Assembly (NCBI RefSeq): GCF_008919445.1
Contig: NZ_VSLG01000003.1
Location: forward strand, 62,001-126,000
Source of the DNA: Serinicoccus kebangsaanensis
GTDB lineage: Bacteria > Actinomycetota > Actinomycetes > Actinomycetales > Dermatophilaceae
Reading direction: 5' to 3'
DNA length: 64,000 nucleotides
Numbering within the stretch: position 1 is the stretch's first letter; each line of letters begins with the position of its first letter. This document shows, piece after piece, positions 7,252 through 56,207 of this stretch. Below the pieces are notes generated by a model. The model saw only the letters and a list, made by a program, of their open reading frames with translations, did not search any database and was not told where the DNA came from. Both the position numbers and the translations under genes were made by a program.

Positions 7252-7986
7252 ATGGAGGCACCCCGCTACGAGCAGCTCACCGCGCTGCTCATCAACTGCT
7301 CGCTCACGCCCGAGCCCGCCCGGTCGCACACCGGGCGTCTGCTCGACGTCGTGGAGCACCTCATGTCCGGGGCCGGTGTGACCGTCGACCGGCTGCACGC
7401 CGTGGGCCACGACATCGCACCCGGGGTGCAGCCGGACATGCGCGAGCACGGCTGGGAGCAGGACGAGTGGCCCGACCTCTGGCCGAGGGTGCAGGCCGCC
7501 GACATCCTGGTCCTGGGCACCCCGCTGTGGCTGGGCGAGGAGTCCTCCGTGTGCCGCACCGTGATCGAGCGGCTCTACGCCATGTCCGGTGAGCTCAACG
7601 ACGCCGGTCAGTCGATCTACTACGGCAAGGTCGGGGGCGCCGTCATCACCGGCAACGAGGACGGCGTCAAGCACACCTCGATGTCCCTGCTCTTCGCGCT
7701 GCAGCACCTCGGGCTGGTCATCCCGCCGCAGGCGGACTGCGGCTGGATCGGGGAGATCGGCCCCGGACCGTCCTACGGCGACCCGCGCGAGGGCCAGGAC
7801 CCGGTCGGCTTCGACAGCGACTTCACCCGCCGCAACGCCACGATCATGAGCTGGAACCTCATGCACCTGGCCCACCTGCTGCGCTCCGCCGGGGGCCTGC
7901 CGACCTACGGCAACGACCGCAACGCGCTGGCCGACGGCGAGCTCTTCGGGTATGCCGCTCCCCGCCCGGTGGCGGACGAGGGCTGA
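7252..7986 (+). CDS. Flavodoxin-like NAD(P)H:FMN oxidoreductase family protein
   Basis: A 244-aa cytoplasmic protein with a flavodoxin fold. The N-terminal strand plus loop LLINCSLTPEPARSHTGRLLD is the expected FMN-phosphate loop, and ADILVLGTPLWLGEESSVCR is the typical second flavin-contacting segment. A likely role is FMN-dependent reduction of small molecules such as quinones or azo compounds; the natural substrate cannot be read from the sequence. An AGGAGG site lies 8 bases upstream of the ATG. It is divergent from the vWA lipoprotein and convergent with the lipid kinase, whose stop is 7 bases past its own. Confidence 0.8.
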   Translation: MEAPRYEQLTALLINCSLTPEPARSHTGRLLDVVEHLMSGAGVTVDRLHAVGHDIAPGVQPDMREHGWEQDEWPDLWPRVQAADILVLGTPLWLGEESSVCRTVIERLYAMSGELNDAGQSIYYGKVGGAVITGNEDGVKHTSMSLLFALQHLGLVIPPQADCGWIGEIGPGPSYGDPREGQDPVGFDSDFTRRNATIMSWNLMHLAHLLRSAGGLPTYGNDRNALADGELFGYAAPRPVADEG

Positions 7987-7993
7987 TCCACCC

Positions 7994-8953
7994 CTAGCGG
8001 CGCGCCCGCTCCTGCGGCACCCGCAACGTCCAGCCCTGGTCCAGCAGCCGCCCGGACCGCCGGGTCACCCGGTCCTGCTCGACCTCGCCGTCGGTGTTGA
8101 CCCGGAAGGCGTCCTGCTCGTCGGCGGCCTCCACGACGATCTCGTGCCCCGACGTGAGCGTGACGTCCTCGCGCCGGGTGTGCCGGCCCTTGCGCAGGTC
8201 CCGGGCGAAGCCCACCCGTGCCCACGGAGAGACACCGTGCGCCACGACCACCTCGACCTGGCCGTCGTCGGGCCGGGCATGCGGCGCGACGGGGGTCCCG
8301 CCCCCCACCGAATTGCCCAGCGCTAGGGACACCATCAGCTCGGGCCGGTCGTCGTCCGCCGTGCCCTCGCCGTCGACCCGCACCCGCAGGTGCCAGCCCT
8401 TCGAGGTCAGCCCGGCCGCCCGGAGCGCGCCCCAGGCGTAGGCCGCCTTGCCGAACGTCCCCTTGACCTCGCTGGCGTGCGCGGTGGCCTCCGCCGCGAC
8501 GCCGGCGTGCACGACGTTGACCACGACCGACCCGGTGTGGTCCACCATCAGTCCGCGCTGGAGCGGGCTGCCCTCGATCGCCACCGTGGCCGCCTCGCGG
8601 GGGTCGAGCGGCAGGCCGGCTCCCCTCGCGAGGTCGTTGCCGGTCCCGAGGGGCACGACGCCCACGGCGCCGATGCGCCCCAGCAGGTCCTGGTCGTGCA
8701 CGGCCTGCAGGAAGCGGTGGACCGACCCGTCCCCACCCATGACGACGACGTCCCGCCCGGCCGCCGAGGCGACCGCGGCGGCATACTCCTCGTCCGACCC
8801 CGGTGCGCGGACGTCGAGCTGCTGCACGGAGCAGGACTCGAGGTGGGCGCAGACCTGCTCCACGACGTCCCCCTCGGAGCTGCCTGCCGCGGAGTTGGAC
8901 AGCACGAGCACGCCCCGGTCGCCGGCCCCGTCGCGAGTCTCCTCGGCCGTCAT
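7994..8953 (-). CDS. Diacylglycerol/sphingosine kinase-family protein
   Basis: A 319-aa soluble lipid or polyisoprenoid kinase of the DAGK catalytic family. Signatures are GGDGSVHRFLQAV (nucleotide-binding GGDG, about residues 72-84) and PLGTGNDLARGAGLPL (about 100-115). The C-terminal part is the usual beta-sandwich with TSGHEIVVEA. Likely product: a phosphorylated lipid feeding membrane-lipid turnover. Start and stop overlap the upstream M20 hydrolase gene by four bases (ATGA), so the two are translationally coupled. The acceptor lipid is not deducible. Confidence 0.88.
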   Translation of the reverse strand: MTAEETRDGAGDRGVLVLSNSAAGSSEGDVVEQVCAHLESCSVQQLDVRAPGSDEEYAAAVASAAGRDVVVMGGDGSVHRFLQAVHDQDLLGRIGAVGVVPLGTGNDLARGAGLPLDPREAATVAIEGSPLQRGLMVDHTGSVVVNVVHAGVAAEATAHASEVKGTFGKAAYAWGALRAAGLTSKGWHLRVRVDGEGTADDDRPELMVSLALGNSVGGGTPVAPHARPDDGQVEVVVAHGVSPWARVGFARDLRKGRHTRREDVTLTSGHEIVVEAADEQDAFRVNTDGEVEQDRVTRRSGRLLDQGWTLRVPQERARR

Positions 8954-10182: not shown

Positions 10183-10187
10183 ACGGT
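10182..10187 (+). promoter_or_regulatory. -10 element TACGGT for plus-strand M20 gene
   Basis: TACGGT followed by six bases and the ATG at 10194; no ribosome binding site. The first base of the hexamer is also the last template position of the divergent gene's start codon. Confidence 0.5.
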
Positions 10188-10188
10188 G

Positions 10189-10194
10189 AGGGTA
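10189..10194 (-). promoter_or_regulatory. -10 element TACCCT for minus-strand M20 gene
   Basis: On the minus strand TACCCT is followed by six bases and the ATG at 10182. It overlaps the first base of the plus-strand start codon, mirroring the element on the other strand. Confidence 0.5.
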
Positions 10195-11351
10195 TGCCGA
10201 CCACTCACGCGGCCGCGGCGCGGGACTACGTGACCGCCCACCTCGACGACGTCCTCGCCGACCTCGCGCTCCTCGTGGGCCTGGAGACGCCGAGCCAGCG
10301 CCGGGACCTGCTGCAGGCCGCACTGCCGCGGATCGAGGCATACCTCGTGGGGAGGCTGGGTGAGCCGTCCGGACGCACGCAGCACGACGGGGGTGAGCAC
10401 GGGGACGTGCTCGACCTGACGTGGACGGGCAGCGGCCCGGCCGGACACGTCCTCTCGCTCGCGCACTACGACACCGTGTGGCCGGAGGGGACGCTCGCGC
10501 AGTGGCCGCTGCGTCGGGACGGCGACCGGCTCACCGGCCCGGGGGTGCTCGACATGAAGGTGGGGATCGTCCAGACGGTGTGGATGGTCCTGGCGCTGCG
10601 CGAGCTGGGCCTGCCGCACCCCGACGTCCGCCTGCTGCTGACCGCGGACGAGGAGATCGGCTCTCGCGGCGGGCGCCCGCACCTGGAGGAGGCGGCCGGT
10701 GACGCCCTCGTCACGCTGATCGCCGAGCCCAGCGCGGCGGGTGCCGTCAAGACCCGGCGCAAGGGCATGGTGTTCGCCGACCTCACCGTGCACGGCGTCG
10801 AGTCGCACGCCGGGCTCGACCCGGACGCCGGCGCGAGCGCCGTCCACGAGCTCGCGCGACTGGTGCCCACGGTGCTCTCCCTCGCCGACAGGGAGCGGCA
10901 GACCACGGTGAACTGCGGGACGATCTCCGGAGGCACGGGGCGCAACGTGGTCGCCGGGCACGCGACGTGCGCTGTCGACGTGCGCATCCAGCACCCTGCC
11001 GAGGAGGACCGCGTGGTCGCGGCGCTGGAGGCCCTCCGGCCGACCGACGAGCGCTGCCGGCTCGAGGTCTCGATCGACCGGAACCGACCACCGATGAACC
11101 CGACGGCCCACACCGAGCGCCTCCTGGCCCTGGCCCGGTCCGCCGGCGCGGACCTCGGCGTCGAGGTGCGGGACGAGCCGGTGGGTGGCGCCAGCGACGG
11201 CAACTTCATCGCCGCACGGGGGCTGCCGGTGCTGGACGGGCTCGGCGGGATCGGCGCAGGCCCGCACGCCCGGCACGAGCACGTGCTGGTGAGCGGGCTG
11301 GCCCGGCAGACGGCTCTGATGGCCGGGATCGTCGAGCAAGTGGCGCGCTGA
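10194..11351 (+). CDS. M20-family metallopeptidase (glutamate carboxypeptidase-like)
   Basis: A 385-aa zinc peptidase of the carboxypeptidase G2 type. Metal ligands and the catalytic base are visible: His in SLAHYDTVWPEG, Asp in GPGVLDMKVG, the Glu pair in TADEEIGSRG, Glu in LIAEPSAAG, and the C-terminal His in GAGPHARHEHV. A dimerisation lid domain lies between about residues 185 and 300. It probably hydrolyses C-terminal glutamate or related amide bonds in the cytoplasm. It is unrelated in detail to the divergent M20 gene, which is amidohydrolase-like. No ribosome binding site is present; TACGGT six bases upstream suggests a leaderless mRNA. An alternative GTG lies 12 codons downstream. Confidence 0.88.
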   Translation: MPTTHAAAARDYVTAHLDDVLADLALLVGLETPSQRRDLLQAALPRIEAYLVGRLGEPSGRTQHDGGEHGDVLDLTWTGSGPAGHVLSLAHYDTVWPEGTLAQWPLRRDGDRLTGPGVLDMKVGIVQTVWMVLALRELGLPHPDVRLLLTADEEIGSRGGRPHLEEAAGDALVTLIAEPSAAGAVKTRRKGMVFADLTVHGVESHAGLDPDAGASAVHELARLVPTVLSLADRERQTTVNCGTISGGTGRNVVAGHATCAVDVRIQHPAEEDRVVAALEALRPTDERCRLEVSIDRNRPPMNPTAHTERLLALARSAGADLGVEVRDEPVGGASDGNFIAARGLPVLDGLGGIGAGPHARHEHVLVSGLARQTALMAGIVEQVAR

Positions 11352-14859: not shown

Positions 14860-16350
14860 CTACCGGCCCAGCCAGGGCGCTGCGGCGTCCCGGTGGGACT
14901 GCCGCTTCTCCTGCGCCATCCCGTCCCAGGTGCGCACCGCGAAGCCGGCGCGGCTGTTGGCCTCGAAGACCTCACGGTGGTCCTCGACGAAGGTCCAGTA
15001 GAGCCCGTCCCACGCCTCCCGCCAGTCCCCCGCGGGCAGGTCGGACATCTTCCTCAGGTAGTTGCTTCCGGAGACGTACGGCTTGGTCGTGATCGCGTCG
15101 CCCGCGGCGAACTGGCTCATGGCATAGACGTTCGGCACCATGACCCAGTCGTAGGCGTCGACGAACAGCGACATGAACCACCGGTACACCTCGTCCGGGT
15201 GCACCCGCAGCAGGCACAGCGCGTTGCCCAGGACCATCAGCCGCTCGATGTGGTGGGCATACCCCCGCTCGAGCACGCGGCGGATCACGAGGTCGACCGG
15301 CTCCAGCCCCGTCTCCCCCGTCCACCACGACGTGTCCAGGCTCCGGCCGTGCTCGAGCACGTTGCTGGTGCGCATCCGTCGCCCCCACAGGCGGTAGGTC
15401 GCGCGCATGTACTCCCGCCACCCGATCAGCTGGCGCACGAAGCCCTCCAGGCTGGCGAGCTCCACGTCGTGCTCGTCCGCGGCCGCCAGGACCCGCTCCA
15501 GCACCTGCGCCGGGTCGATCAACCCGCAGTTGAGACCGGGTGTCAGGGCGGCGTGGAAGATCACCGGGTGCTCCCGGCTGATCGCGTCCTCGTACGGCCC
15601 GAACTGGGTGAACCGCTCGTCCAGGAAGCGGCGCAGCGCCGCATCCGCCTCCGCGGGTGAGGTCGGCCAGCAGAAGGTCCCGGGGTCGCCGGGGGCGTCC
15701 GGGAAGTGCTCGCCGACCCAGTCGACGGCCTCGGTGACGCGGGTATGCCGTCGCGCCGGCCCGAGCGACGGGTCCGGCACGGGGTGACCGGAAGGCAGCT
15801 TCTTGCGGTTCTCGGTGTCGAAGGACCACCGGCCCCCCACCGGCTGGTCGCCGTCCATGAGCACGTCCAGCCGTCGACGCTGCCAGGCGTAGAAGTGCTG
15901 CATCCGGGCCCCGCCGGACGCGAAGTGCTCCCTGACCTGCTCGCGGGTGGTGAGGAAGCCCGGCGTGTCCAGGACGTCCTCCGTGCGCAGCTCGTAGCCG
16001 CCCTCGCGCAGCTGGTCGCGGCAGTGCCGTCCCAGCCAGTCGTCGGCGACGTCGAGCACGGTGACCTGGCCGGGCCGCAGACGCTCCACCAGCTCCACCA
16101 GCCCACGGCCGCTCGTGCGGTCCGGCGAGGACTCGACGACCTCCACGTCCAGGCCCTGCTCCCTGGCCCGGTCCGCGAACCGCCGGGTGGCGGCCCGGTG
16201 CAGGACCAGCTTGTGCGCGTGGAAGGGGTACTGGCGGTAGAGGAGGTCCTCCTCCACCACGACCAGCACCGTCCCGGGCGGGACGTGCAGCTGCTCCGTG
16301 TGCAGCTGGTGCGGGTAGACCAGGCGCAGCCGGGTGGAGCGCCCGCTCAT
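14860..16350 (-). CDS. Cryptochrome/photolyase-family protein (FeS-BCP-like, without the C-terminal cysteine cluster)
   Basis: A 496-aa flavoprotein of the deoxyribodipyrimidine photolyase-related (PhrB/CryB-like) family, expected to repair or sense UV photoproducts using FAD. The N-terminal Rossmann part is LRLVYPHQLH...VEEDLLYRQYPFHAHKLVLHRAATRRF. The C-terminal FAD-binding part includes GWREYMRATYRLWGRR, ERGYAHHIERLMVLGNALCLL and KPYVSGSNYLRKMSDLP. In iron-sulfur members the last segment continues into a cysteine cluster; here it reads PAGDWREAWDGLYW with no cysteine, so the 4Fe-4S site looks absent. The start at 16350 overlaps the upstream 2H gene by four bases. It is the last gene of a three-gene operon. 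Confidence 0.85.
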   Translation of the reverse strand: MSGRSTRLRLVYPHQLHTEQLHVPPGTVLVVVEEDLLYRQYPFHAHKLVLHRAATRRFADRAREQGLDVEVVESSPDRTSGRGLVELVERLRPGQVTVLDVADDWLGRHCRDQLREGGYELRTEDVLDTPGFLTTREQVREHFASGGARMQHFYAWQRRRLDVLMDGDQPVGGRWSFDTENRKKLPSGHPVPDPSLGPARRHTRVTEAVDWVGEHFPDAPGDPGTFCWPTSPAEADAALRRFLDERFTQFGPYEDAISREHPVIFHAALTPGLNCGLIDPAQVLERVLAAADEHDVELASLEGFVRQLIGWREYMRATYRLWGRRMRTSNVLEHGRSLDTSWWTGETGLEPVDLVIRRVLERGYAHHIERLMVLGNALCLLRVHPDEVYRWFMSLFVDAYDWVMVPNVYAMSQFAAGDAITTKPYVSGSNYLRKMSDLPAGDWREAWDGLYWTFVEDHREVFEANSRAGFAVRTWDGMAQEKRQSHRDAAAPWLGR

Positions 16351-17883: not shown

Positions 17884-18828
17884 ATGCAGACCCCCACCTT
17901 CCCCGGCACCGACCGTCCGTTCGCACCGATCAACCTCGGCGGCAACCCCTTCGGCTGGACCGCCTCCGCCGACGCCAGCTTCGCGGTGCTCGACGCCTTC
18001 CTCGACGCGGGCGGTGCCTTCGTGGACACCGCCGACGCCTACTCGGCCTGGGCCGACGGGCACGAGGGCGGCGAGTCCGAGGCGATCATCGGGCGGTGGA
18101 TGGCCGACCGGGGCAACCGCGACCAGGTGCTCGTGGCCACCAAGGTCGGCAAGAAGCCCGATCGTCAGGGGCTCGGGCGGGCGAGCGTCCTGGCCGCCCT
18201 GGACGAGTCGCTGGACCGGCTGGAGACCGACCACGTGGACCTCTACTACGCCCACGCCGACGACGAGAGCGTCGCCATCGCCGACCAGGTCGCCACCTTC
18301 GACGAGGTCGTGACCAGCGGCAGGGCCCGAGCACTCGGCCTGTCCAACTACACCCCGGCGCGGCTGCGCGAGTTCCTCGAGACCGCCGCGAGCCAGGACG
18401 CGACGCTGCCGACGGCGATCCAGCCGCGCTACAGCCTGGTCTCCCGGGGCGACTACGAGCGCACGCTGGCGCCGCTGGTCGCGGAGTTCGACCTCGCGGT
18501 CTTCTGCTACCCGGCCCTCGCCTCCGGCTTCCTCACCGGCAAGTACCGCACCGAGGCCGACTTCGACGGCAACGCCCGGGGAGGCGCCGCCCGACGGTAT
18601 GCCGAGGCCGGCGGGCTCGCCGTCGTGGACGCCCTGGTGCAGGTGGCCGACCGGCACGGCGTCGAGCCGGCCACGGTGGCCCTGGGCTGGCTGCTGGCCA
18701 AGGGCGTGACCGCTCCGATCGCCTCCGCCTCCCGGCCCGAGCAGCTGGCGCCGCTCATGGCGGCGACCGGGCTGCGGCTCACCGAGGACGACGTGGCCGA
18801 GCTGGACGAGGCGTCGGCGAGCTTCTGA
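17884..18828 (+). CDS. Aldo/keto reductase
   Basis: A 314-aa NAD(P)H-dependent TIM-barrel reductase. The catalytic tetrad is visible: Asp and Tyr in FVDTADAYSAW (about residues 44-54), Lys in VATKVGKKPD, and His in DLYYAHADD. The cofactor-binding C-terminus is present (SASRPEQLAPLM). Length and order are normal for the family. It would reduce aldehydes or ketones in the cytoplasm; the substrate is not predictable. It is monocistronic, divergent from the DUF2236 operon and convergent with the molybdenum hydroxylase gene. The 57-base gap holds a weak GC hairpin (18864-18879). Confidence 0.88.
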   Translation: MQTPTFPGTDRPFAPINLGGNPFGWTASADASFAVLDAFLDAGGAFVDTADAYSAWADGHEGGESEAIIGRWMADRGNRDQVLVATKVGKKPDRQGLGRASVLAALDESLDRLETDHVDLYYAHADDESVAIADQVATFDEVVTSGRARALGLSNYTPARLREFLETAASQDATLPTAIQPRYSLVSRGDYERTLAPLVAEFDLAVFCYPALASGFLTGKYRTEADFDGNARGGAARRYAEAGGLAVVDALVQVADRHGVEPATVALGWLLAKGVTAPIASASRPEQLAPLMAATGLRLTEDDVAELDEASASF

Positions 18829-21327: not shown

Positions 21328-21333
21328 GGTGGT

Positions 21334-22509
21334 ATGCCTGCTGCGACCCACGACCTGCTCGACCTGGACTCGCTGCTCACCGAGGACGAACGCGCGGTCC
21401 GGGCCAGCGTCCGCCAGGCCTGCGCCGACCTGGTGCTCCCGCACGTGGCGGGGTGGTACGAGAACGGCGACCTCCCTGCTGCGCAGGTGCGCGAGCTGGT
21501 CGGGGAGTTCGGCCGGCTCGGCCTGCTCGGGATGCACCTCGAGGGCTACGGCTGCGCCGGGATGGGCGCGGTCGACTACGGCCTGGCCTGCACCGAGCTG
21601 GAGGCCGCGGACTCCGGCATCCGCTCGATGGTCTCGGTGCAGGGCTCGCTCGCGATGCACGCCCTGCACACCTTCGGCAGCGAGGAGCAGAGGCAGGAGT
21701 GGCTGCCGGCGATGGCCGCCGGCGAGCGGATCGGCTGCTTCGGGCTCACCGAGCCGGACCACGGCTCGGACCCCGCCTCGATGACCACCCGCGCCCGCCA
21801 GGACGGGTCCGACTGGATCCTGGACGGCACCAAGACCTGGATCACCAACGCCCCGGTGGCCGATGTCGCGGTCGTCTGGGCCCGGACTGACGACGGCGTC
21901 CGGGGCTTCGTCGTGCCCACCGGCACCGCCGGTGTCCAGACCCCGACCATCAGCCACAAGCTGTCGCTGCGCGCCTCCGTGACCGGGCAGGTCGTCCTGG
22001 AGCAGGTGCGGCTGCCCGGGGACGCGGTGCTGCCGGGCGTGCGCGGCCTGAAGGGGCCGCTGTCCTGCCTGTCCGAGGCCCGCTACGGCATCGTGTGGGG
22101 CGCCATGGGTGCTGCCCGGACGGCGCTGCTGACGGCGTTGGAGTATGCCGGCACGCGCGAGCAGTTCGGTCGCCCGATCAGCGGCTTCCAGCTGACCCAG
22201 GCCAAGCTGGCCCGGATGCACCAGGCCTGGGCGACCGGCACCCTGCTCGCGCTGCACCTGGGCCGGCGCAAGGACGAGCACGGGCTGCGGCCCGAGCAGG
22301 TCAGCGTCGGCAAGCTCAACAACGTCACGGCCGCGCTGGAGATCTGCCGCACGGCGCGCACCGTCCTGGGCGCGAACGGCATCTCCGGCGACTACCCGCT
22401 CATGCGGCACGCGAACAACCTCGAGTCGGTGCTCACCTACGAGGGGACCGAGGAGATGCACACCCTCGTCGTCGGGCAGGCGCTCACCGGCGAGCCGGCC
22501 TACCGCTGA
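21334..22509 (+). CDS. Acyl-CoA dehydrogenase (glutaryl-CoA dehydrogenase-like)
   Basis: A 391-aa FAD enzyme introducing a double bond into acyl-CoA, transferring electrons to ETF. The flavin/substrate motif CFGLTEPDHGSDPASM (about residues 130-145), WITNAPVADV, and the C-terminal YEGTEEMHTLVVGQALTG with the catalytic Glu (about residue 370) match the glutaryl-CoA dehydrogenase branch. The decarboxylating activity itself cannot be proved from sequence. Leaderless-type start at 21334. Its last 10 bases overlap the convergent membrane-protein gene. It is divergent from the Mo-hydroxylase with about 50 bases between start codons. Confidence 0.9.
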   Translation: MPAATHDLLDLDSLLTEDERAVRASVRQACADLVLPHVAGWYENGDLPAAQVRELVGEFGRLGLLGMHLEGYGCAGMGAVDYGLACTELEAADSGIRSMVSVQGSLAMHALHTFGSEEQRQEWLPAMAAGERIGCFGLTEPDHGSDPASMTTRARQDGSDWILDGTKTWITNAPVADVAVVWARTDDGVRGFVVPTGTAGVQTPTISHKLSLRASVTGQVVLEQVRLPGDAVLPGVRGLKGPLSCLSEARYGIVWGAMGAARTALLTALEYAGTREQFGRPISGFQLTQAKLARMHQAWATGTLLALHLGRRKDEHGLRPEQVSVGKLNNVTAALEICRTARTVLGANGISGDYPLMRHANNLESVLTYEGTEEMHTLVVGQALTGEPAYR

Positions 22510-40836: not shown

Positions 40837-43800
40837 CCCCCGACCTCGAAGAAGGCCTCGGTGATCTGGCCCAGGGAGCACACCCTCGCGGCGTCCATGA
40901 GCACGGAGAAGACGTTGTCGCCGGCCATCGCGGCCTCCTTGAGCCGGCCCAGGGCCGCCTGCGCCTCGTCGCGGTGCTCCTCCTGGTATGCCTCCACCCG
41001 CTGCAGCTGCGACTGCTTCTCGGCCTCGGTCGCCCGCGCCAGCTCGACCTCCACCTCCTCACGGTCGGCCTCGGGCCGGCGGAAGGTGTTGACCCCGATG
41101 ATCGGCAGGCTGCCGTCGTGCTTGCGGTGCTCGTAGAGCAGCGACTCGTCCTGGATCTTGCCGCGCTGGTAGCCGGTCTCCATCGCGCCCAGCACCCCGC
41201 CGCGCTCGCTGATCCGGTCGAACTCCGCGAGCACCGCCTCCTCGACGAGGTCGGTGAGCTGCTCGATGATGAACGACCCCTGGTTCGGGTTCTCGTTCAT
41301 CGCCAGGCCCCACTCCTTGTTGATGATGAGCTGGATCGCGAGCGCCCGGCGCACGGACTCCCCGCTCGGGGTGGTGACCGCCTCGTCGTAGGCGTTGGTG
41401 TGCAGGGAGTTGGCGTTGTCGTAGATCGCGATGAGCGCCTGCAGCGTGGTGCGGATGTCGTTGAAGTCCATCTCCTGGGCGTGCAGCGACCGGCCCGAGG
41501 TCTGCACGTGGTACTTCAGCTTCTGGCTGCGCTCGTTCGCGCCGTACCTGTCCCGCATGGCGACCGCCCAGATCCGTCGCGCGACGCGGCCGATGACGGA
41601 GTACTCGACGTCCATGCCGTTGGAGAAGAAGAAGGACAGGTTGGGCGCGAAGGCGTTGATGTCCATCCCGCGGGCGAGGTAGGACTCGACGTAGGTGAAC
41701 CCGTTGGCCAGGGTGAACGCCAGCTGGCTGATGGGGTTCGCCCCTGCCTCGGCGATGTGGTAGCCGGAGATCGAGACCGAGTAGAAGTTGCGCACGCCCT
41801 GCTCGATGAACCACTCCTGGACATCACCCATCATCCGCAGCGAGAACTCGGTGGTGAACAGGCAGGTGTTCTGCCCCTGGTCCTCCTTGAGGATGTCCGC
41901 CTGGACGGTGCCGCGGACGTTCTGCAGGGCGTAGGCGCGCAGCTCCTCCGCCTCCGCCCCGGACGGCTCACGGCCCTCACGCTCGCGGAAGGCGTCGACC
42001 TGCTGGTCGATCGCCGTGTTGAGGAAGAACGCCAGCACCGTCGGTGCCGGACCGTTGATCGTCATCGACACCGACGTCGTGGGGTCGACGAGGTCGAACC
42101 CGTCGTAGAGCGCCTTCATGTCGTCCAGCGTCGCGATCGACACGCCCGAGGTGCCGACCTTGCCGTAGATGTCGGGACGTGGCGCCGGGTCGTGCCCGTA
42201 GAGGGTGACCGAGTCGAAGGCGGTCGAGAGGCGGGTGGCCGGCTGTCCCTCGGACAGCAGCTTGAAGCGGCGGTTGGTGCGGAACGGGTCGCCCTCCCCG
42301 GCGAACATCCGGGCCGGGTCCTCGTTGTCGCGCTTGAAGGCGAAGACCCCGGCGGTGTAGGGGAAGGACCCCGGGAGGTTCTCGCTGCGCCAGTAGCGCA
42401 CGAGCGCTCCCGCCTCGTCGTAGGTCGGCAGCGCCACCCGCGGGATGCGGTTGCCGGAGAGCGACTCCTTGGTCAGCGTCGTGTGGATCTCACGGTCCCG
42501 GACCTTCACCACCTGCTCGTCGCCGGAGTATGCCTCGACCCGGGCGGGCCAGCCGGTGATCATCTCCTCGATCTCGGTGGGCAGCTCCCGACGCGCGTCG
42601 GCCAGGAGGTCGTCGACGCCGTGGTCGGTCTTCCCCGCGGCCGCCAGCTCGTCGTCCACGGCGGCGAGCCGCTCCACCCGGCGGGCGGCGAGGGCATACC
42701 GCTCCGTGTCGTCGTGGTAGCCGCGCACCGTGTCCGCGATCTCGGCGAGGTAGCGCACCCGCTTCGGCGGCACCACCTGGCGGATCATCGAGGAGTAGCG
42801 CACGTCCACGACGGGCAGGCTGCCCTCCTGCACGGTCAGCCCCTGCTCGCCCAGAGCGGAGCGCAGCTCCTGGTAGAGCGCCGTCACGCCGTCGTCGTTG
42901 AAGGTCGCCGCCGAGGTGCCGTAGACCGGCATGTCCTCCGGCTTGGCGCCGAAGGCCTCCCGGTTGCGGACCAGCTGGCGGCCCACGTCGCGCAGGGCAT
43001 CCATGGACCCGCGGCGCTCGAACTTGTTGATGGCCACCACGTCGGCGAAGTCGAGCATGTCGATCTTCTCCAGCTGGCTGGCCGCACCGAACTCCGGCGT
43101 CATGACGTAGAGCGAGGTGTCGACGTAGGGGACGATCCCGGCGTCGCCCTGCCCGATGCCCGGCGTCTCCACGACGACGAGGTCGAAACCGGCCGCCTTG
43201 AGCACGTCGATCGCCACCGGCAACGCCTCGGGCACCTCCGACTCGCCCCGGGTGGCCATCGACCGGAACATCACCTGGGCCCCGCCGATCGCGCCCATCC
43301 GGATCCGGTCGCCGAGCAGTGCGCCGCCACCCTTGCGCCGCGTGGGGTCGATGGCGATGACGCCGACGCGGAGCCGGTCGCCCTGGTCCACCCGGAAGCG
43401 TCGCACCAGCTCGTCGGTGAGGGAGCTCTTGCCCGACCCGCCGGTGCCGGTGATGCCCAGGACCGGCGTGGCGCGCTCCCGCGCCGCCGCGGCATACCGC
43501 TCCCGGTCCGCCGCGGGGAGGGACCCCAGCTCGGCACCGGTGATCGCCCGCGCGACCGCGGTCCGCTCCCCCGCCAGCACCGCCTCCACGTCGGCCGCAC
43601 CGACCTGCCACATGTCGTAGTCGGCGTCGGTGATGACCTGGTTGATCATCCCCGGGAGGCCGAGCCGCTGGCCGTCCTCCGGGGAGAAGATGGTCACACC
43701 CGCGTCCCGGAGCCGCGCGATCTCCTCGTCGACGATGACGCCCCCACCCCCGCCGACGACCTTCACGTGCCCGGCCCCGGCGTCGCGCAGCTGCTCCACG

Positions 43801-44234: not shown

Positions 44235-45095
44235 GTGAAGAGTCTCGTGCTGGCCGCCCTCGCCACCGTCCTCGGTCTGCTGCTCGCCCTCGCCGGCTCC
44301 GACGGCGGGCAGCAGCTGTCCGGCGGCATGCCGGTCCTGCTGCTCCTGGTCCTCGTCGCCTTCGGGATCAACTGGGTGGTCTACGTCCCGTCGTTCCTCG
44401 CCCAGACCGAGCGGTACTTCGACCTCACCGGGTCGCTGACCTTCCAGCTCGTCGCCGTCCTCGCGCTGGTCCTGGCGGAGGAGCGGGACGCCCGCACCTG
44501 GATCCTCGCCGGCATGGTCCTGGTGTGGGCGCTGCGGCTCGGGATCTTCCTCTTCCGGCGGGTCGTCCGGGCCGGCAAGGACGGGCGCTTCGACGAGCTG
44601 AAGAAGAGCTGGTCCCGCTTCCTGCTGGTCTGGACCACGCAGGGGCTGTGGGTGACCTTCACCGCCGGCGCCGCGCTGGCCGCCATCACCTCGGCCACGA
44701 AGACGCCGCTGGGACTGCTCGGGTATGCCGGCATCCTGGTGTGGCTGGCCGGGATCACGGTGGAGTCGGTCGCCGACGCCCAGAAGTCGGCCTTCAAGGC
44801 CGACACCGCGAACGAGGGCGACTTCATCTCCTCCGGCCTGTGGTCCGTGTCGCGACACCCCAACTACGTCGGCGAGATCCTGCTGTGGACCGGCGTGGCC
44901 ATGCTGGCCGCCGCCGCCCTGTCGGGGTGGCAGCTGGTCACCCTCGTCTCCCCGGTGCTGATCTATCTGCTGCTGCGCTTCGGCAGCGGGGTCCCGGCCC
45001 TGGAGCGCCGCGCCGACGACAAGTGGGGCGGCCGGTCCGACTACGAGGCGTACAAGCAGCGCACCCCTGTGCTCTTCCCCGTCGGCAAGGGCTGA
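44235..45095 (+). CDS. DUF1295 membrane protein (steroid 5-alpha-reductase-like)
   Basis: A 286-aa integral membrane protein with about seven helices. The C-terminal signature SGLWSVSRHPNYVGEILLWTGV and the final ALERRADDKWGGRSDYEAYKQRTPVLFP are those of DUF1295/NnrU-like NADPH-dependent steroid-reductase-fold proteins. The GTG at 44235 places the first helix (SLVLAALATVLGLLLALAG) at the N-terminus and has TACGCT seven bases upstream. Substrate unknown, probably a lipid or isoprenoid double bond. It is followed 26 bases later by the UDP-sugar pyrophosphorylase gene, which has its own promoter-like box. Confidence 0.85.
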   Translation: MKSLVLAALATVLGLLLALAGSDGGQQLSGGMPVLLLLVLVAFGINWVVYVPSFLAQTERYFDLTGSLTFQLVAVLALVLAEERDARTWILAGMVLVWALRLGIFLFRRVVRAGKDGRFDELKKSWSRFLLVWTTQGLWVTFTAGAALAAITSATKTPLGLLGYAGILVWLAGITVESVADAQKSAFKADTANEGDFISSGLWSVSRHPNYVGEILLWTGVAMLAAAALSGWQLVTLVSPVLIYLLLRFGSGVPALERRADDKWGGRSDYEAYKQRTPVLFPVGKG

Positions 45096-45121: not shown

Positions 45122-46504
45122 ATGAGCGCATCGGGACGTCAGCAGGCCCTGGACCGTATGCAGCAGGCCGGCGTGAGCCAGCCCGCGCGCGACACCTTCG
45201 CCCGGCACTACGACAACCTGGCCGCCGGCGCGACCGGCCTGATCGCCGAGGCCGACGTGGAGCCGGCGCTGCCCGCGGCATACCTCCAGGAGGTCGCGGT
45301 GAGCGACGAGGAGGCGCGCGCGGCGCTCTCGGCCACCGCCGTCATCACCCTCAACGGGGGTCTCGGGACCTCCATGGGGCTGGCCGGTCCCAAGTCGCTG
45401 CTCCCGGTCCGGGACGAGCTGACCTTCCTCGACATCACGGTGCGTCAGGTCCTCGCGCTGCGCGAGCGCTACGACGTGCGGCTCCCCCTGACCTTCATGG
45501 ACAGCTTCTCCACCCAGGAGGCGACGCTGCAGGTGCTGGGCCGCTACCCGGACCTGCCCGTCGACGGCCTGCCGCTGGACTTCCTGCAGAGCCAGGAGCC
45601 GAAGCTGCGGGCCGACGACCTCGGGCCGGTGACCTGGGAGGCCGACCCGCGTCTGGAGTGGTGCCCCCCGGGGCACGGCGACCTCTACCCGTCGCTGCTC
45701 GCGAGCGGCCTGCTCGACCAGCTGCTCGACGCGGGCTTCCGGTATGCCTTCGTCTCCAACGTGGACAACCTCGGTGCGGTGGCGGACGGGCGGGTGGCGG
45801 CGTGGTTCGCCGCGAGCGGTGCCGGCTTCGCCGCGGAGGTCTGCCGACGCACCGAGATGGACAAGAAGGGTGGTCACCTGGTGCGGCGCCGGGCCGACGG
45901 GCGCCTGGTGCTGCGGGACACCGCCCAGACGGCCGAGGAGGAGATGGTGCACTTCATGGACGGGGACAAGCACCCGTTCGTCAACACCAACAACCTCTGG
46001 TTCGACCTCGCGCGGCTGCGCGCGATGCTGACCGAGCGGGACGGGGTCATGGAGCTGCCGCTGATCCGCAACGCCAAGACCGTCGACCCCACGGACAAGA
46101 GCTCCACCCCGGTCATCCAGATCGAGTCGGCCATGGGCAGCGCGGTCGAGCTCTTCGAGGACGCGGCGTCCGTCGCCGTCACCCGCGACCGGTTCGTGCC
46201 GGTCAAGACCACCAACGAGCTGGCCCTGCTGCGCTCCGACGTCTACCAGGTCGACGACAGCACCTACCGGCTGCGCCGGAGCGTCGACCCCGCGCCGGTG
46301 GTGGACCTGACCAAGGCGCACTACGGCATGATCGGCGACTTCGACCAGCGGTTCCCGGCCGGTGTGCCCTCGCTGGTGGACGCGACCCGGCTGCAGGTCG
46401 AGGGCGACTGGTCCTTCGGCAGCTCGGTGCGGGTCGTCGGTGCCGCGGTGCTGGGACCCGAGGGCGGCACCGTCGAGGACGGGGAGACGCTCGGTAGCCC
46501 ATGA
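45122..46504 (+). CDS. UTP-glucose-1-phosphate uridylyltransferase (eukaryote-like UDPGP family)
   Basis: A 460-aa nucleotidyltransferase making UDP-glucose (or a related UDP-sugar) from UTP and sugar-1-phosphate. The nucleotide-binding motif is TLNGGLGTSMGLAGPKS (about residues 76-92), characteristic of the UDPGP/AGX family and unlike bacterial GalU. GHGDLYPSL, FVSNVDNLGA and MDKKGGHLVRR follow in family order. The product would feed glycogen/trehalose, cell-wall or glycolipid synthesis. Its last four bases overlap the next gene's start (ATGA). Confidence 0.9.
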   Translation: MSASGRQQALDRMQQAGVSQPARDTFARHYDNLAAGATGLIAEADVEPALPAAYLQEVAVSDEEARAALSATAVITLNGGLGTSMGLAGPKSLLPVRDELTFLDITVRQVLALRERYDVRLPLTFMDSFSTQEATLQVLGRYPDLPVDGLPLDFLQSQEPKLRADDLGPVTWEADPRLEWCPPGHGDLYPSLLASGLLDQLLDAGFRYAFVSNVDNLGAVADGRVAAWFAASGAGFAAEVCRRTEMDKKGGHLVRRRADGRLVLRDTAQTAEEEMVHFMDGDKHPFVNTNNLWFDLARLRAMLTERDGVMELPLIRNAKTVDPTDKSSTPVIQIESAMGSAVELFEDAASVAVTRDRFVPVKTTNELALLRSDVYQVDDSTYRLRRSVDPAPVVDLTKAHYGMIGDFDQRFPAGVPSLVDATRLQVEGDWSFGSSVRVVGAAVLGPEGGTVEDGETLGSP

Positions 46505-48349: not shown

Positions 48350-49762
48350 CTACCCGACCGAGCCCGATCCTGCCACGTCGGCGAACCACTGCCCGCTCGC
48401 CTTGGGCGTGCGCCGCTGGGTGTCGTAGTCGACGCGCACGATGCCGAACCGCTTGGTGTAGCCGAAGGCCCACTCGTAGTTGTCCAGCAGGGACCAGACG
48501 AAGTATCCCCGCACGTCGGCGCCGTCCTCGACCGCCGCGTGCACGGCCCGCAGGTGGCCGTCCAGGTAGGCGATCCGGTCCTGGTCGTCGACGTAGCCCT
48601 CCTCGTCCGGCACGTCAGGCATCGCCGCACCGTTCTCGGTGACGTAGATCCGGGTCCCCGCCGGGCCGGTGTAGTCCCGCTGCAGCCGCAGCAGCAGTAG
48701 GCGCAGGGCGTCCGGCTGGATCTCCCAGCCCATGTCGCTGACCGGTATGCCGCGGCGCACCGTCCGGACGTGCTCGGACCCGACGTTCGGCGAGGGACCG
48801 TCGAAGGCGCGGGCCTGCCGCGCCGCCTCGGCCGCCCCGGACGGCTCCGGGCCGGTCACCATGGTGCCCGCGTAGAAGTTCACCCCGAGGACGTCGATCG
48901 GCGTCGAGATGGCCTCGAGGTCGCCGTCCTGCACCAGGTCCGCGGGCCACAGCTCCCCCAGGTCCTCGATGACGTCGGCGGGATAGGCGCCGCGGGTGAT
49001 CGGCTCGACGAAGAAGCGGTTGGCCAGGCCATCGATCCGCCGCGCCGCGTCGACGTCACCGGGCGAGGCGGGGTCCTGGGGCTGGGTGTCGGTGAAGTTC
49101 AGCGTCAGCCCGAGCTCCAGCTCCGGGTCGCGGCGGCGCAGCTCCTGGACCGCACGGCCGTGCGACAGCAGCAGGTGGTGCGCGGCCCGCAGCGCGTCGG
49201 ACGGCTCGGTGCGACCGGGCGCGTGCACGCCGGCGGCATACCCGAGGAAGGCCGAGCACCACGGCTCGTTGAGCGTGGTCAGGTGCCGGACCCGGTCGCC
49301 GAGCCGGTCGTGCACGGCCAGGGCGTGGTCGACGAACCGGTCCACGACACCACGGTCCGGCCAGCCCCCCGCCTCCTCCAGCGCCTGCGGCATGTCCCAG
49401 TGGTAGAGCGTCACCCAGGGCAGGATGTCCGCCTCGAGCAGCTGGTCCACGAGGCGGGAGTAGAAGTCCAGGCCCTGCTGGTTGAGGGTGCGCCCGTCCG
49501 GGAAGACGCGCGCCCAGGACACCGAGAAGCGGTAGGCCCCGAGCCGCAACGAGCGCATGAGAGCCACGTCGTCGGGCATCCGGTGGTAGTGGTCGCAGGC
49601 CACCGCCCCGGTGTGCCCGTGCAGGACCTTGCCGGGCGTGGCGGAGAACGGTCCCCAGATGCAGTCCGCCCGGCCGTCCTCGTGCACCGCACCCTCGATC
49701 TGGTAGGCCGCGGTGGCGGAGCCGAAGAGGAATCCGTCGGGGAAGGTGATCTGCGTGGTCAT
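48350..49762 (-). CDS. GH1 beta-glucosidase
   Basis: A 470-aa family-1 glycoside hydrolase, cytoplasmic (no signal peptide). It begins FPDGFLFGSATAAYQIEGA; the acid/base Glu is in TLNEPW (about residue 164) and the nucleophile Glu in YVTENGA (about 375), both intact, with YFVWSLLDNYEWAFGYTKRFG at the aglycone side. It would hydrolyse imported cellobiose or other beta-glucosides to glucose. Start overlaps the upstream permease stop (ATGA). The operon context with a CebR-like operator supports cello-oligosaccharide use. Confidence 0.93.
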   Translation of the reverse strand: MTTQITFPDGFLFGSATAAYQIEGAVHEDGRADCIWGPFSATPGKVLHGHTGAVACDHYHRMPDDVALMRSLRLGAYRFSVSWARVFPDGRTLNQQGLDFYSRLVDQLLEADILPWVTLYHWDMPQALEEAGGWPDRGVVDRFVDHALAVHDRLGDRVRHLTTLNEPWCSAFLGYAAGVHAPGRTEPSDALRAAHHLLLSHGRAVQELRRRDPELELGLTLNFTDTQPQDPASPGDVDAARRIDGLANRFFVEPITRGAYPADVIEDLGELWPADLVQDGDLEAISTPIDVLGVNFYAGTMVTGPEPSGAAEAARQARAFDGPSPNVGSEHVRTVRRGIPVSDMGWEIQPDALRLLLLRLQRDYTGPAGTRIYVTENGAAMPDVPDEEGYVDDQDRIAYLDGHLRAVHAAVEDGADVRGYFVWSLLDNYEWAFGYTKRFGIVRVDYDTQRRTPKASGQWFADVAGSGSVG

Positions 49763-50652
49763 TGCTTGACGGCTCCTTGCATGATGCCGGACACCAGCTG
49801 GCGCCCGGCGACGACGAACAGGACGAGCAGCGGGATCGTGGCGAGCACGGCACCGGCCAGGACCAGCGAGTAGTCGACGAAGTGGGCGGCCTGCAGCTGC
49901 TGCAGCGCCACCGGCAGCGTCGGGTTGGCCGGTCCCAGCACGATGAACGGCCAGAAGAAGTTGGTCCAGGTGGCGACGAAGGTGAACAACCCCAGCATGG
50001 CCGCGGCGGGCCGGGCGGCCGGGACTCCGACGTGCCAGAAGGTGCGGAACATGTTGGCGCCGTCGACCCGGGCCGCCTCGATGAGCTCGGTGGGCACGGC
50101 CTGCCGCAGGTACTGCGTCATCCAGAACACGCCGAACGCGGTGACCAGCCCCGGGACGATCACGGCCGTGAGCTCCCCGGTCCAGCCCAGCCTGGCCATG
50201 ACCTGGTAGAGCGGGACGACGCCGAGCTGGGTCGGCACCGCCATCGTCGCGATGACGAAGATCAGCAACGGCCCCGAGCCGCGGAAGCGGAGCTTGGCGA
50301 AGGCATACCCCGCGAGGGTGGAGAAGAAGACCACCGAGGCGGAGACCGTCGTCGACACGATGATCGAGTTGACCGTCGCCCGCCAGAACTCCACCGTGTC
50401 GAAGACGGTCGCCGCGTTGCGCAGGAAGTTGCCTCCCGGCACGAACGGGAACGGGTCGCGCGAGAGGACCGTGGAGTCGTGGCTGGCGATGAGGTAGGAC
50501 CACCACAGCGGGAACATGCTGCCGAGGACGACCGCGGCGAGCAGACCGTAGACGATCCAGCTCGGCCGTTCGCCGCGATGGCCGCGCCGGCGCTCGCGCC
50601 CGGCCTGCGCCTCGTCGGTCTCCGGCGGTGCCGGCACTGGCGTGGTGCTCAT
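49759..50652 (-). CDS. Sugar ABC transporter permease (CebG/MalG-like)
   Basis: A 297-aa permease with about six helices after a charged N-terminal tail (first helix WIVYGLLAAVVLGSMFPLWW). EAA loop: IEAARVDGANMFRTFWHVGVPAARP, then TFVATWTNFFWPFIVL. ATGA overlaps on both sides couple it to the other permease and the beta-glucosidase. Second membrane subunit of the cellobiose-type importer. Confidence 0.92.
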   Translation of the reverse strand: MSTTPVPAPPETDEAQAGRERRRGHRGERPSWIVYGLLAAVVLGSMFPLWWSYLIASHDSTVLSRDPFPFVPGGNFLRNAATVFDTVEFWRATVNSIIVSTTVSASVVFFSTLAGYAFAKLRFRGSGPLLIFVIATMAVPTQLGVVPLYQVMARLGWTGELTAVIVPGLVTAFGVFWMTQYLRQAVPTELIEAARVDGANMFRTFWHVGVPAARPAAAMLGLFTFVATWTNFFWPFIVLGPANPTLPVALQQLQAAHFVDYSLVLAGAVLATIPLLVLFVVAGRQLVSGIMQGAVKQ

Positions 50653-53205: not shown

Positions 53206-53210
53206 CAAGG

Positions 53211-54173: not shown

Positions 54174-54201
54174 CAGGTGACCCTCTCAGACGCCGCGTCG
54201 G

Positions 54202-55689
54202 TCAGCTCAGCCGCACGTTGATCTGCTGGATCTGGGTGAAGCCCTCCAGCATCCCCTCGAGGGAGAACTCCCGGCCCTGCCCGCTGGCCTTCATCCCGCC
54301 GTAGGACTGGCCGACCTGCTGCCCGCCACCCTGGTTCACCTGCACCCAACCGGACTCGATGCGCTGCGCCGTGCGCAGGGCCATCCCCAGGTCCCGGGCG
54401 AAGACGAAGGCGGCGAGTCCGTAGTGGCTGTCGTTGGCCATCGCGACCACCTCGTCCTCCTCGTGCCAGCGCAGCACGGACAGGACCGGGCCGAAGATCT
54501 CCTCCCGCGCGATCCGCCAGTCGTTGTCGACCTGGGTGAGGATCATCGGCGCGTGGTAGAACCCGGGCTCCCCGACCGTGAGCGTGTCCCGACCGTCGTA
54601 GGCTACCTGGACCCCCTCGGCCGCCAGACCCTCGTCGATGAACCCCTGGACCCGGTCCCACTGCCGCTGGTTGATGATGCAGCCGATGTCCGTCGCCTCC
54701 TCGCGCGGATCACCGACCCGCAGCTCACCCACCCGCCGCACCAGCTTCTCCAGGAAGCTGTCGTGGATCGCGTCGTGCAGGAACAGGCGCGAGCCGGAGG
54801 TGCAGCTCTGCCCCTGCCGGGCGAAGCGGGTCGCCAGCAGCACCTGCTCGACCACGTCGTCGGTGTCGGCGTCGGGAAAGACGATGCACGGGCTCTTGCC
54901 GCCGAGCTCCAGGCTCACGTGGGCGAGCCGCTCCCCTGCCCGCGCCGCGACGCCGGAGCCGGTCGCGGTCGAGCCGGTGAACGACACCTTGTCCACGCCC
55001 GGGTGCTCGACCAGGGCGTGGCCCACCTCGGGCCCGTAGCCGGTGACCACTCCCAGCACACCCGCGGGCAGGTGCCGGGCGCACACCCGCGCCAGCTCCA
55101 GGATCGTGGTGGGCGCGTCCTCCGCGGCCTTCAGCACCACGGCGTTCCCCGCGACCAGGGCGGCCGGGAGCTTGAAGGCGGCGATCATCAGCGGGCTGTT
55201 CCACGGCAGGATCCCCGCCACCACCCCGAGCGGGAGCCGCCGGCTGAGCGACAGCGCGTCGGTGCCCACGGGCAGGGTGACCCCCTTGAGCTCGCCGGCC
55301 AGCCCGGCGAAGTAGCGGAAGGCCGTCACCAGCAGCTGCGCCTCGGGCCTGGCCTGGGTGCGCAGCGCGTTGCCGGTGTCGAGCGCGGTGAGCGCGGCGA
55401 GGTCCTCGACCACCTCCTCCAGGTCGTCGGCGATCCGCAGCAGGGCTCGTTGCCGCTCGGTGAAGGTCAGGGCCGCCCACCCCGGCTGGGCGGCCGCCGC
55501 GGCTCGCACCGCCCGGTCGGCGTCCTCCGCCCGCCCGCGCGGCACGGTGGCGATCACGCGGTGCCGGTCGATCGGCGTGATCACGTCGATCGTCTCACCG
55601 GTGGCTGCGTCCACCCAGCTCCCGTCGATCAGCATCTGGTATGCCCTCGGCGCGGTCGCCTCGAAGCTCGGGAAGGTGCCGGTGCTCAT
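54202..55689 (-). CDS. Aldehyde dehydrogenase family protein
   Basis: A 495-aa NAD(P)-dependent dehydrogenase. LPWNSPLMIAAFK, SFTGSTATGSGVAARA, the catalytic Glu in SLELGGKSPCIVFPDAD (about residue 260) and the catalytic Cys in QGQSCTSGSRLF (about 295) are intact; the C-terminus SYGGMKASGQGREFSLEGM is typical. Start at 55689 with GAGGGAGC upstream. The substrate aldehyde is unknown. It is upstream of the nitronate monooxygenase gene and divergent from aroQ by 80 bases. Confidence 0.88.
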   Translation of the reverse strand: MSTGTFPSFEATAPRAYQMLIDGSWVDAATGETIDVITPIDRHRVIATVPRGRAEDADRAVRAAAAAQPGWAALTFTERQRALLRIADDLEEVVEDLAALTALDTGNALRTQARPEAQLLVTAFRYFAGLAGELKGVTLPVGTDALSLSRRLPLGVVAGILPWNSPLMIAAFKLPAALVAGNAVVLKAAEDAPTTILELARVCARHLPAGVLGVVTGYGPEVGHALVEHPGVDKVSFTGSTATGSGVAARAGERLAHVSLELGGKSPCIVFPDADTDDVVEQVLLATRFARQGQSCTSGSRLFLHDAIHDSFLEKLVRRVGELRVGDPREEATDIGCIINQRQWDRVQGFIDEGLAAEGVQVAYDGRDTLTVGEPGFYHAPMILTQVDNDWRIAREEIFGPVLSVLRWHEEDEVVAMANDSHYGLAAFVFARDLGMALRTAQRIESGWVQVNQGGGQQVGQSYGGMKASGQGREFSLEGMLEGFTQIQQINVRLS

Positions 55690-55769
55690 GGTGCTCCCTC
55701 GTGCGGTGGTGGCCACGAGCCTAGCCAGCACGCCACCGCGCCCGGTGGGCGTGTGAGAACGTAGCCCTC

Positions 55770-56207
55770 ATGGCGCGCCGCATCCTGGTCCTCAACGGAC
55801 CCAACCTCGACCTGCTGGGCACCCGGGAGCCGCACATCTACGGCACCGCCACCCTCGCCGACGTCGAGGCGCTGTGCGCCGAGCGGGCCGCCGCGCACGG
55901 GCTCGAGGTGAGCTGCCGGCAGAGCAACCACGAGGGCGAGCTGGTCGAGGCGCTGCACGAGGCGGGCGCGGACACCGAGTGCGTCGGTGTGGTGCTCAAC
56001 GCGGGTGCCTACACGCATACCTCCGTCGCGCTGCACGACGCGATCACGGCGACCGGCGTCCGCGTCGTCGAGGTGCACATCTCCAACCCGCACGCCCGCG
56101 AGCCGTTCCGGCACACGTCCTACCTGTCCTCCGTCGCGGAGATGGTGGTGGCCGGTGCCGGGGTGCGGGGCTACGGGTATGCCGTCGACCAGCTGGCGAC
56201 CGGCTGA
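55770..56207 (+). CDS. aroQ: Type II 3-dehydroquinate dehydratase
   Basis: A 145-aa dodecameric enzyme of the shikimate pathway, converting 3-dehydroquinate to 3-dehydroshikimate. Sequence landmarks are LNGPNLDLLGTREPHIYG (active-site Arg and Tyr24), QSNHEGELVEALHEA, LNAGAYTHTSVALHDAI, and the catalytic His and Arg in EVHISNPHAREPFRHTS (about residues 103-119). Full length. No strong ribosome site is seen. It stands alone, divergent from the aldehyde dehydrogenase and convergent (7 bases apart) with the FAD oxidoreductase; other aro genes are not nearby. Confidence 0.95.
   Translation: MARRILVLNGPNLDLLGTREPHIYGTATLADVEALCAERAAAHGLEVSCRQSNHEGELVEALHEAGADTECVGVVLNAGAYTHTSVALHDAITATGVRVVEVHISNPHAREPFRHTSYLSSVAEMVVAGAGVRGYGYAVDQLATG

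Follow-up and report, generated by a model that had tools for sequence, protein, structure and literature searches.

The 64-kb window described here (the whole stretch of DNA analysed; bases 62001–126000 of contig 24 of an actinobacterial genome of 3,503,838 bases in 37 contigs) carries genes, one of them encoding a fused methylmalonyl-CoA-type mutase, and 28 exact copies of the octamer GGTATGCC, 16 on the plus and 12 on the minus strand (Table 1). The complement of this word, GGCATACC, is a different string; GGTATGCC is non-palindromic and directional. A first-pass annotation of the window had listed the copies in these numbers, and all 28 were found. The start positions given were correct for 27 of them, while the copy placed at 44723 begins at 44722.

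A directional octamer in excess across the genome

Dinucleotide-preserving shuffles of the window (100 replicates) yielded 0.71 ± 0.82 copies of GGTATGCC, with a maximum of 3, and in an order-2 Markov ranking of the window 8-mers this word came first (28 copies observed versus 0.88 expected). When a Markov model of maximal order was fitted to this window itself, it predicted 26.8 copies, close to the observed number, since the core 6- and 7-mers are for the most part found within GGTATGCC. The whole genome contains 1,764 copies (894 and 870 in the two orientations), as compared with 10 copies (4 and 6) of the reversed word, which corresponds to a density of about one per 2 kb over both strands. 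In 484 kb of this genome, 226 copies were counted versus 9.6 expected from an order-2 model, a frequency far above the Markov expectation. Both the excess over chance and the near equality of orientations, which had been proposed from the window, therefore hold genome-wide.

The genomes were sampled at 100–520 kb each (44 kb for G151 and 20 kb for several others), and genes in the samples, like those of the window, were called by a custom script based on a simple codon model. In 464 kb of the host genome, the 214 sites were distributed among the six coding phases as 85, 50, 26, 15, 9 and 4, with 21 intergenic sites and 4 straddling gene ends. A similar spread was observed for 344 sites in 500 kb of G117, the complete genome of a relative (90, 66, 55, 26, 19 and 8 in the coding phases, 70 intergenic and 10 straddling).

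It is extremely improbable that such a pattern arises secondarily from the usage of codons, codon pairs or dipeptides, or from mutation bias. TAT-GCC is the commonest phase in the host genome (85 of the 214 sites, so that the word is not confined to this frame) and the Tyr-Ala dipeptide is in slight excess (1.15), but the word is present in all phases, at antisense as well as intergenic sites. Moreover, its frequency within genes exceeded that obtained by synonymous-codon shuffling (60 shuffles per genome) 10- to 13-fold in each of four genomes: 201 copies versus 14.9 ± 3.4 in the host genome, 274 versus 22.1 ± 3.7 in G117 and, for the form GTATGCCG (see below), 140 versus 10.4 ± 3.0 in G141 and 101 versus 9.6 ± 3.0 in G164. 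These results agree with the first-pass annotation, which had considered codon or dipeptide bias insufficient. The word forces rare codons: a large part of all ATA codons lie inside it (29 of 50 in the host genome, 58 of 81 in G117, 14 of 18 in G141 and 11 of 16 in G164; 58–78%). Fewer copies were present in genes of the top codon-bias fifth and of the lowest GC fifth.

With respect to mutation bias, there is a depletion of GCATGC and GTAC, in which the transition neighbours of the core are contained, but that of GCATGC is also seen in four GGTATGCC-poor genomes. For this reason, and because the gain of GGTATGCC is far above the deficit of its neighbours, a T/C redistribution by transition among GGCATGCC, GGTACGCC and GGTATGCC was rejected as the cause. 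The excess of GGTATGCC is a real, DNA-level and lineage-specific signal.

The two short sequences were also compared across nine samples. GTAC was present at 0.42–0.60 of the order-2 expectation in five samples bearing the word (the host genome, G117, G141, G164 and G039) and at 0.73–0.85, a milder depletion, in four GGTATGCC-poor samples; GCATGC was depleted in all nine. Both depletions possibly result from restriction.

Within the window, two copies had been assigned to start codons. This assignment holds for the copy at 10191, while that at 21331 lies antisense inside a called gene. Both ends of the window lack GGTATGCC for about 8 kb (positions 1–7948 and 56184–64000), the left one containing genes for a LacI-type regulator and a DUF305 protein.

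Table 1. Exact copies of the octamer in the 64-kb window, with their strand and their phase relative to the called genes.
Word	Coordinates	Strand	Context
GGTATGCC	7949..7956	+	sense, xGG-TAT-GCC phase
GGTATGCC	10191..10198	+	overlaps ATG start of gene 10194-11351
GGTATGCC	10337..10344	-	antisense, GCA-TAC phase
GGTATGCC	15256..15263	-	sense, TAT-GCC phase
GGTATGCC	15742..15749	+	antisense, CAT-ACC phase
GGTATGCC	18596..18603	+	sense, TAT-GCC phase
GGTATGCC	21331..21338	+	antisense, CAT-ACC phase
GGTATGCC	22539..22546	-	sense, TAT-GCC phase
GGTATGCC	24478..24485	+	sense, TAT-GCC phase
GGTATGCC	30063..30070	+	antisense, GGC-ATA-CC phase, rare Ile codon
GGTATGCC	30194..30201	-	sense, TAT-GCC phase
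GGTATGCC	31259..31266	-	sense, TAT-GCC phase
GGTATGCC	32048..32055	+	antisense, GCA-TAC phase
GGTATGCC	35226..35233	+	antisense, GGC-ATA-CC phase
GGTATGCC	36038..36045	-	sense, GGT-ATG-CC phase
GGTATGCC	37497..37504	+	antisense, GCA-TAC phase
GGTATGCC	38827..38834	-	sense, GGT-ATG-CC phase
GGTATGCC	40985..40992	+	fused methylmalonyl-CoA-type mutase gene; antisense, GCA-TAC phase; by order in gene, the site in 3 of 24 rows
GGTATGCC	42693..42700	-	fused methylmalonyl-CoA-type mutase gene; sense, TAT-GCC phase; by order in gene, the site in 7 of 24 rows
GGTATGCC	43491..43498	-	fused methylmalonyl-CoA-type mutase gene; sense, TAT-GCC phase; by order in gene, the site in 16 of 24 rows
GGTATGCC	44722..44729	+	sense, TAT-GCC phase
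GGTATGCC	45277..45284	-	antisense, GCA-TAC phase
GGTATGCC	45741..45748	+	sense, TAT-GCC phase
GGTATGCC	48744..48751	+	antisense, GGC-ATA-CC phase
GGTATGCC	49235..49242	-	sense, TAT-GCC phase
GGTATGCC	50302..50309	-	sense, TAT-GCC phase
GGTATGCC	55638..55645	+	antisense, GCA-TAC phase
GGTATGCC	56176..56183	+	sense, TAT-GCC phase

Dialects and strand-specific spacing

The word consists of a core, GTATGCC, with preferences at the adjacent bases and a weak GC-patterned 3′ extension. Its dialects can be contrasted as GGTATGCCg and sGTATGCCGy. In three genomes of genus g1, the preferred form is GGTATGCC followed by any base except A (A in 0–2%). The preferred form in G141, G164 and G039 is GTATGCCG, mostly preceded by G/C and followed by C/T, in which G directly follows GTATGCC in 97–99% of cases.

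A weak pattern extends over about 10 bp 3′ of the core. Still weaker deviations are scattered up to about 40 bp away on either side, and one lies at +59. The near 3′ pattern is present at intergenic sites also, and therefore reading frame alone is not its cause. Of two control octamers, each represented by about 100 sites and thus offering lower power than the word (625 and 387 sites), one deviated at +8 only and the other nowhere. Known uptake sequences likewise extend from their core into the flanks, and in the uptake signal sequence (USS) of the Pasteurellaceae, which like the word described here is short (a 9–10 bp core) and numerous (1,471 copies in Haemophilus), flanking positions matter. 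Single one-mismatch forms exceeded the order-2 expectation at position 1 and, in g1, also at positions 7 and 8.

The spacing of the copies depends on their orientation. Among 1,016 sites in six genomes, 188 same-orientation pairs were found less than 1 kb apart, versus 354 expected from uniform placement and 417 pairs of opposite orientation; beyond 1 kb, both kinds of pairs were near expectation. In 500 orientation shuffles, no value as low was obtained for the host genome, G117, G141 or G164, and the corresponding P values were 0.002 for G039 and 0.098 for G120, which provided only 47 sites. Convergent and divergent pairs were nearly equal in number (107 and 102 in g1; 112 and 96 in the other genomes). 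The exclusion was observed in five genomes both within genes (65 same-orientation pairs versus 168 expected; 171 opposite) and across gene boundaries (120 versus 174 expected; 238 opposite). Its edge at about 1 kb is noisy, since some 100-bp bins beyond are also low (e.g. 0.56 at 1.2–1.3 kb).

Variant forms were likewise under-represented in the orientation of a neighbouring main word: 115 same- and 206 opposite-orientation pairs were counted for HGTATGCC, 26 and 49 for GGTATGCG, and 13 and 27 for GGTATGTC. HGTATGCC showed no exclusion of itself (33 same, 22 opposite). Nor was exclusion seen for three control words (same:opposite ratios of 251:222, 38:20 and 7:4), which further argues against codon usage as the source of the pattern.

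Such spacing may also be explained by a Chi-like recombination or nuclease-control signal, the main rival to the reading favoured below. A helicase-nuclease that loads at double-strand ends (AdnAB, or another enzyme resembling AddAB or RecBCD) would read one strand and switch to recombination upon meeting the word, and selection would maintain roughly one copy every few kb on each strand. Chi sites are asymmetric, 5–8 bp long and act on one strand, and are in this respect similar to the word, with its asymmetric 8-bp core and its same-orientation redundancy over about 1 kb. Control of a helicase-nuclease predicts strand-specific action as well. Mycobacterial AdnAB is not known to depend on Chi, and Chi of E. 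coli is strongly biased with respect to the replication arms. By contrast, analysis of the one complete genome, G117 (25 stretches of 20 kb), revealed no replication-arm bias, whichever way the circle was halved (the arms differed by 18 at most, versus a null mean of 31.7; P 0.94). The strand bias relative to origin and terminus that the first-pass annotation had suggested mapping, a Chi-like expectation, is thus absent in this relative, in which forward and reverse copies are closer to equal numbers than expected at random (11.7 on 25 degrees of freedom). The lack of orientation skew in G117 also distinguishes the word from the FtsK-orienting polar sequences (KOPS) and SpoIIIE recognition sequences (SRS), motifs strongly skewed toward the terminus.

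The site density in G117 was uneven, ranging from 3 and 4 up to 28 per 20 kb (L140 against L139 and L146). A role of the word as a transcription terminator was rejected, because copies lying close together are no commoner than expected (in G117, 13 of 323 gaps were below 60 bp, with about 11 expected below 50 bp); this differs from H. influenzae, in which overlapping inverted USS pairs act as terminators according to the available part of PMC7811141.

Distribution in the family and a second word in two sister genera

Enrichment was measured as the GGTATGCC count relative to the reversed-word control. Of 186 genomes of the family, to which Serinicoccus belongs, 83 (representing 23 of 53 genera) reached at least 10 times the control, 26 reached 5–10 times and 77 fell below; these counts use one exact form, so that genera with other dialects are undercounted. 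The maximum was 2,228 copies, and 32 of the 186 genomes contained 1,000 or more. No enrichment was found in 19 other families of the order (273 genomes, at most 136 copies), and the genome with 136 copies also contained 33 of the reversed word.

Among 39 named loci checked, three reached 4 copies of any word form, each in 23 kb: those of Serinicoccus chungangensis (9 copies of GGTATGCC), Janibacter sp. HTCC2649 (16 of GTATGCCG) and Nostocoides jenkinsii (8 of GTATGCCG). S. chungangensis (NCBI family Ornithinimicrobiaceae) is also the nearest named relative by mutase protein among the matches listed (91% identity). A positional comparison in relatives, as advised in the first-pass annotation, was possible for the mutase gene. 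In an alignment of 24 rows, one GGTATGCC site was common to 16, another to 7 and a third to 3. The rows, which include L224–L244 but neither the partial L245 nor the distant paralogues L246–L253, represent 23 genomes, since G109 and the named S. chungangensis record are apparently one and the same.

Analysis of the GGTATGCC-poor genome G057 (g27) identified a different outlier, GAAGGGGG, which is present in all phases and between genes and whose count within genes was 67 versus 14 from synonymous shuffles. The 9-mer CGAAGGGGG occurs in 797–1,939 copies in all 16 genomes of g27 and all 3 of g36, and in at most 80 copies in the remaining 165 of 184 genomes. The same 19 genomes contain only 6–40 copies of GGTATGCC each. 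In these two sister genera, CGAAGGGGG, an unrelated word, stands in place of GGTATGCC. It shows same-orientation exclusion as well (9 same, 24 opposite, P 0.0045) in a sample of 200 kb (160 kb of G057 and 20 kb each of G064 and G093). These results show a directional and strand-specific word that is restricted to certain lineages and has a substitute in one clade. Its dialects, the replacement word and the strand-specific spacing lay beyond what the first-pass annotation could see.

In an unrooted RpoB tree of 26 chosen genomes, g27 and g36 formed one clade (100/100). On this tree, 6 changes are needed for word 1 and 5 for the state without a word, of which 5 in each case are forced by well-supported branches. 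Since the tree is unrooted, we infer with due caution that word 1 was ancestral in the family, was replaced once and was lost several times. A LeuS tree (17 of 28 loci, the 11 in which LeuS was not found having been dropped) placed G093 (g36, L182) beside G164 (L170; 99/99). Two origins of the second word, as this placement would suggest, were rejected because of the union of g27 and g36 in the RpoB tree, with which ComEC and ComEA trees agree (in these, the G083 ComEC row, on a very long branch, is evidently a wrong protein, and 6 of 20 loci yielded no ComEA). A single origin is accordingly the one suggested by these trees, and transfer of leuS appears possible.

Other candidate words were less clear. 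In G083 (2.8 Mb; L183, L254–L257), CGATGCGG is present in 2,007 copies, versus 583 in its genus-mate G082, with 61 genomes searched; same-orientation exclusion of CGATGCGG was not seen in G083, and it is possibly a third word, specific to this genome. In the GGTATGCC-poor G084 (L204–L210, L176), GTACGGCG/CGCCGTAC occurs 57 times in genes versus 17 expected, and searches of G114, G084 and G160, all GGTATGCC-poor, revealed no word judged clear.

The genome-wide, strand-balanced spread and the patchy presence in the family, the latter as in mobile modification systems, could be reconciled with a site that a chromosome-associated protein binds or modifies (a nucleoid protein, an asymmetric methyltransferase or a HIP1-like element) and that is kept for genome organisation. 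We consider this unlikely, because orientation-specific spacing is unexpected for a protein that binds only duplex DNA, and methylation sites are seldom enriched 20-fold or more. HIP1 of cyanobacteria is, like the word described here, a single over-represented octamer, but it is palindromic (judging from a title in the reference list of PMC1939737) and GGTATGCC is not.

Candidate readers and a possible role in DNA uptake

Of the roles listed in the first-pass annotation, DNA uptake is the one favoured here. With about an even chance of being correct, GGTATGCC may be the core of a genome-wide self-tag resembling DNA uptake sequences (DUS), one that is recognised on a single strand and spreads through biased transformation. 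A natural-transformation reader, located at the cell surface or in the cytoplasm (Tad-type pilus, ComEA, ComEC or single-strand handling), would prefer word-bearing strands. Self DNA bearing the word would then be recombined more often, and the word would build up through biased gene exchange until each strand held about one copy per tract. Since a single strand would enter the cytoplasm, each copy would serve its own strand only, and neighbours of the same orientation, unlike those of opposite orientation, would be redundant within a tract length. If the specificity of the reader changed or was lost, the old word would decay and a new one might build up. Accumulation by biased uptake would account for both the patchy loss and the word switch, neither of which is readily compatible with an essential repair signal.

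The properties of the word are largely those of known uptake sequences, which are over-represented, balanced over the chromosome, present in coding and intergenic DNA, and differentiated into dialects (PMC1939737, PMC3630211, PMC5031613, each seen in part). Like the word, the DUS of Neisseriaceae is short, occurs about once per 1–2 kb in coding and intergenic regions, lacks a chromosome-wide orientation bias and has dialects that follow phylogeny (available parts of PMC3630211 and PMC1939737). The two differ in that a CTG core is common to all eight DUS dialects (PMC3630211, same part), whereas one clade here carries an unrelated word, and in that the present word belongs to a high-GC Gram-positive family mostly without PilM. 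Same-orientation exclusion was observed for the actinobacterial word.

Candidate machinery was searched for across the family genomes. ComEC was found in 179 of 184 genomes, and comEA adjoins comEC in the host genome. A Tad-type ATPase exceeded the curated cut-off in 67 of 70 genomes; only matches over this cut-off were counted, because the model also matches 13 of 14 control genomes (over the cut-off in 1). Both proteins are near universal and therefore uninformative on the reader. Type IV pilus PilM, which belongs to the same pilus system as the known DUS receptor, was present in only 7 of 184 genomes, so that a type IV pilus receptor is an improbable reader. RecC was identified in 18 of 35 word-rich and 22 of 35 GGTATGCC-poor genomes (among the latter, in all 11 second-word genomes and in 11 of 24 with neither word). 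Its presence does not track the word, for which reason a RecBCD–Chi system was rejected. Thus, no reader was found among ComEC, Tad-type ATPase, PilM and RecC. Transformation of Micrococcus luteus, also an actinobacterium with comEA/comEC, a Tad-type pilus and no comG, requires Flp pili; the accessible part of this report (PMC6370729) mentions no sequence preference, and the genomes of the present family resemble that of M. luteus in their ComEC and Tad-type ATPases.

The RecC pattern speaks against RecBCD only, and not against other Chi-like systems. Chi is recognised as a single strand, as stated in a title in the reference list of PMC1939737, which would suit the word. Nevertheless, the repeated absence of the word and the switch to an unrelated one are hard to reconcile with an essential repair signal and, together with the absence of arm bias in G117, set the word apart from Chi, leaving a Chi-like role possible but rather doubtful. 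The Chi-like role listed in the first-pass annotation, if of the RecBCD type, fits these data poorly.

Several observations weigh against the uptake reading itself. To our knowledge, no uptake sequence is known in any Gram-positive bacterium, and none appeared among the open-licence papers listed by the searches. ComEC and the Tad-type ATPase also occur in word-poor genomes, so that they provide no link between the word and competence genes, and PilM is rare, as noted above. In the host genome, one-mismatch copies (386) outnumber the 226 exact ones, an abundance that in raw form resembles that of DUS (PMC3630211, in part). However, outside position 1 there were 289 such forms versus 310 expected at order 2, and this lack of excess may count against uptake, since some would be expected to remain from biased gain and decay. 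The exclusion range of about 1 kb derives from the spacing of these words themselves. Finally, orientation is irrelevant to uptake of USS in Haemophilus (PMC1939737, in part); strand-specific spacing is therefore not predicted by classical uptake sequences.

A further proposal, put forward more tentatively and with the odds somewhat against it, is that Gram-positive actinobacteria may possess a new kind of genome-wide signal of self, a switchable word read on single strands, with the two strands stocked independently at about one copy per tract of kilobase scale and the word exchanged in one lineage for one that has nothing in common with it, by a mechanism unlike the known two. If so, the marking of exchanged DNA by sequence, or some other strand-specific step of self-recognition, would reach beyond the two Gram-negative families in which it is known. 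No description of an over-represented genome word of this kind in Actinobacteria was found in searches of open-licence literature, and none is known to us.

Self-DNA tags have been described for two Gram-negative families (PMC5031613, PMC13192263, in the parts available). If such a tag system exists in Gram-positive actinobacteria, the repeated absence and complete change of the word would provide natural replicates of how uptake specificity starts, spreads and switches. The reader could then be sought by comparison of species that bear the word, have changed it or lack it. From the strand-specific exclusion over about 1 kb, the length and the polarity of the genome-stocking process may be gauged and, in practical terms, placing the word on donor DNA might make environmental strains transformable.

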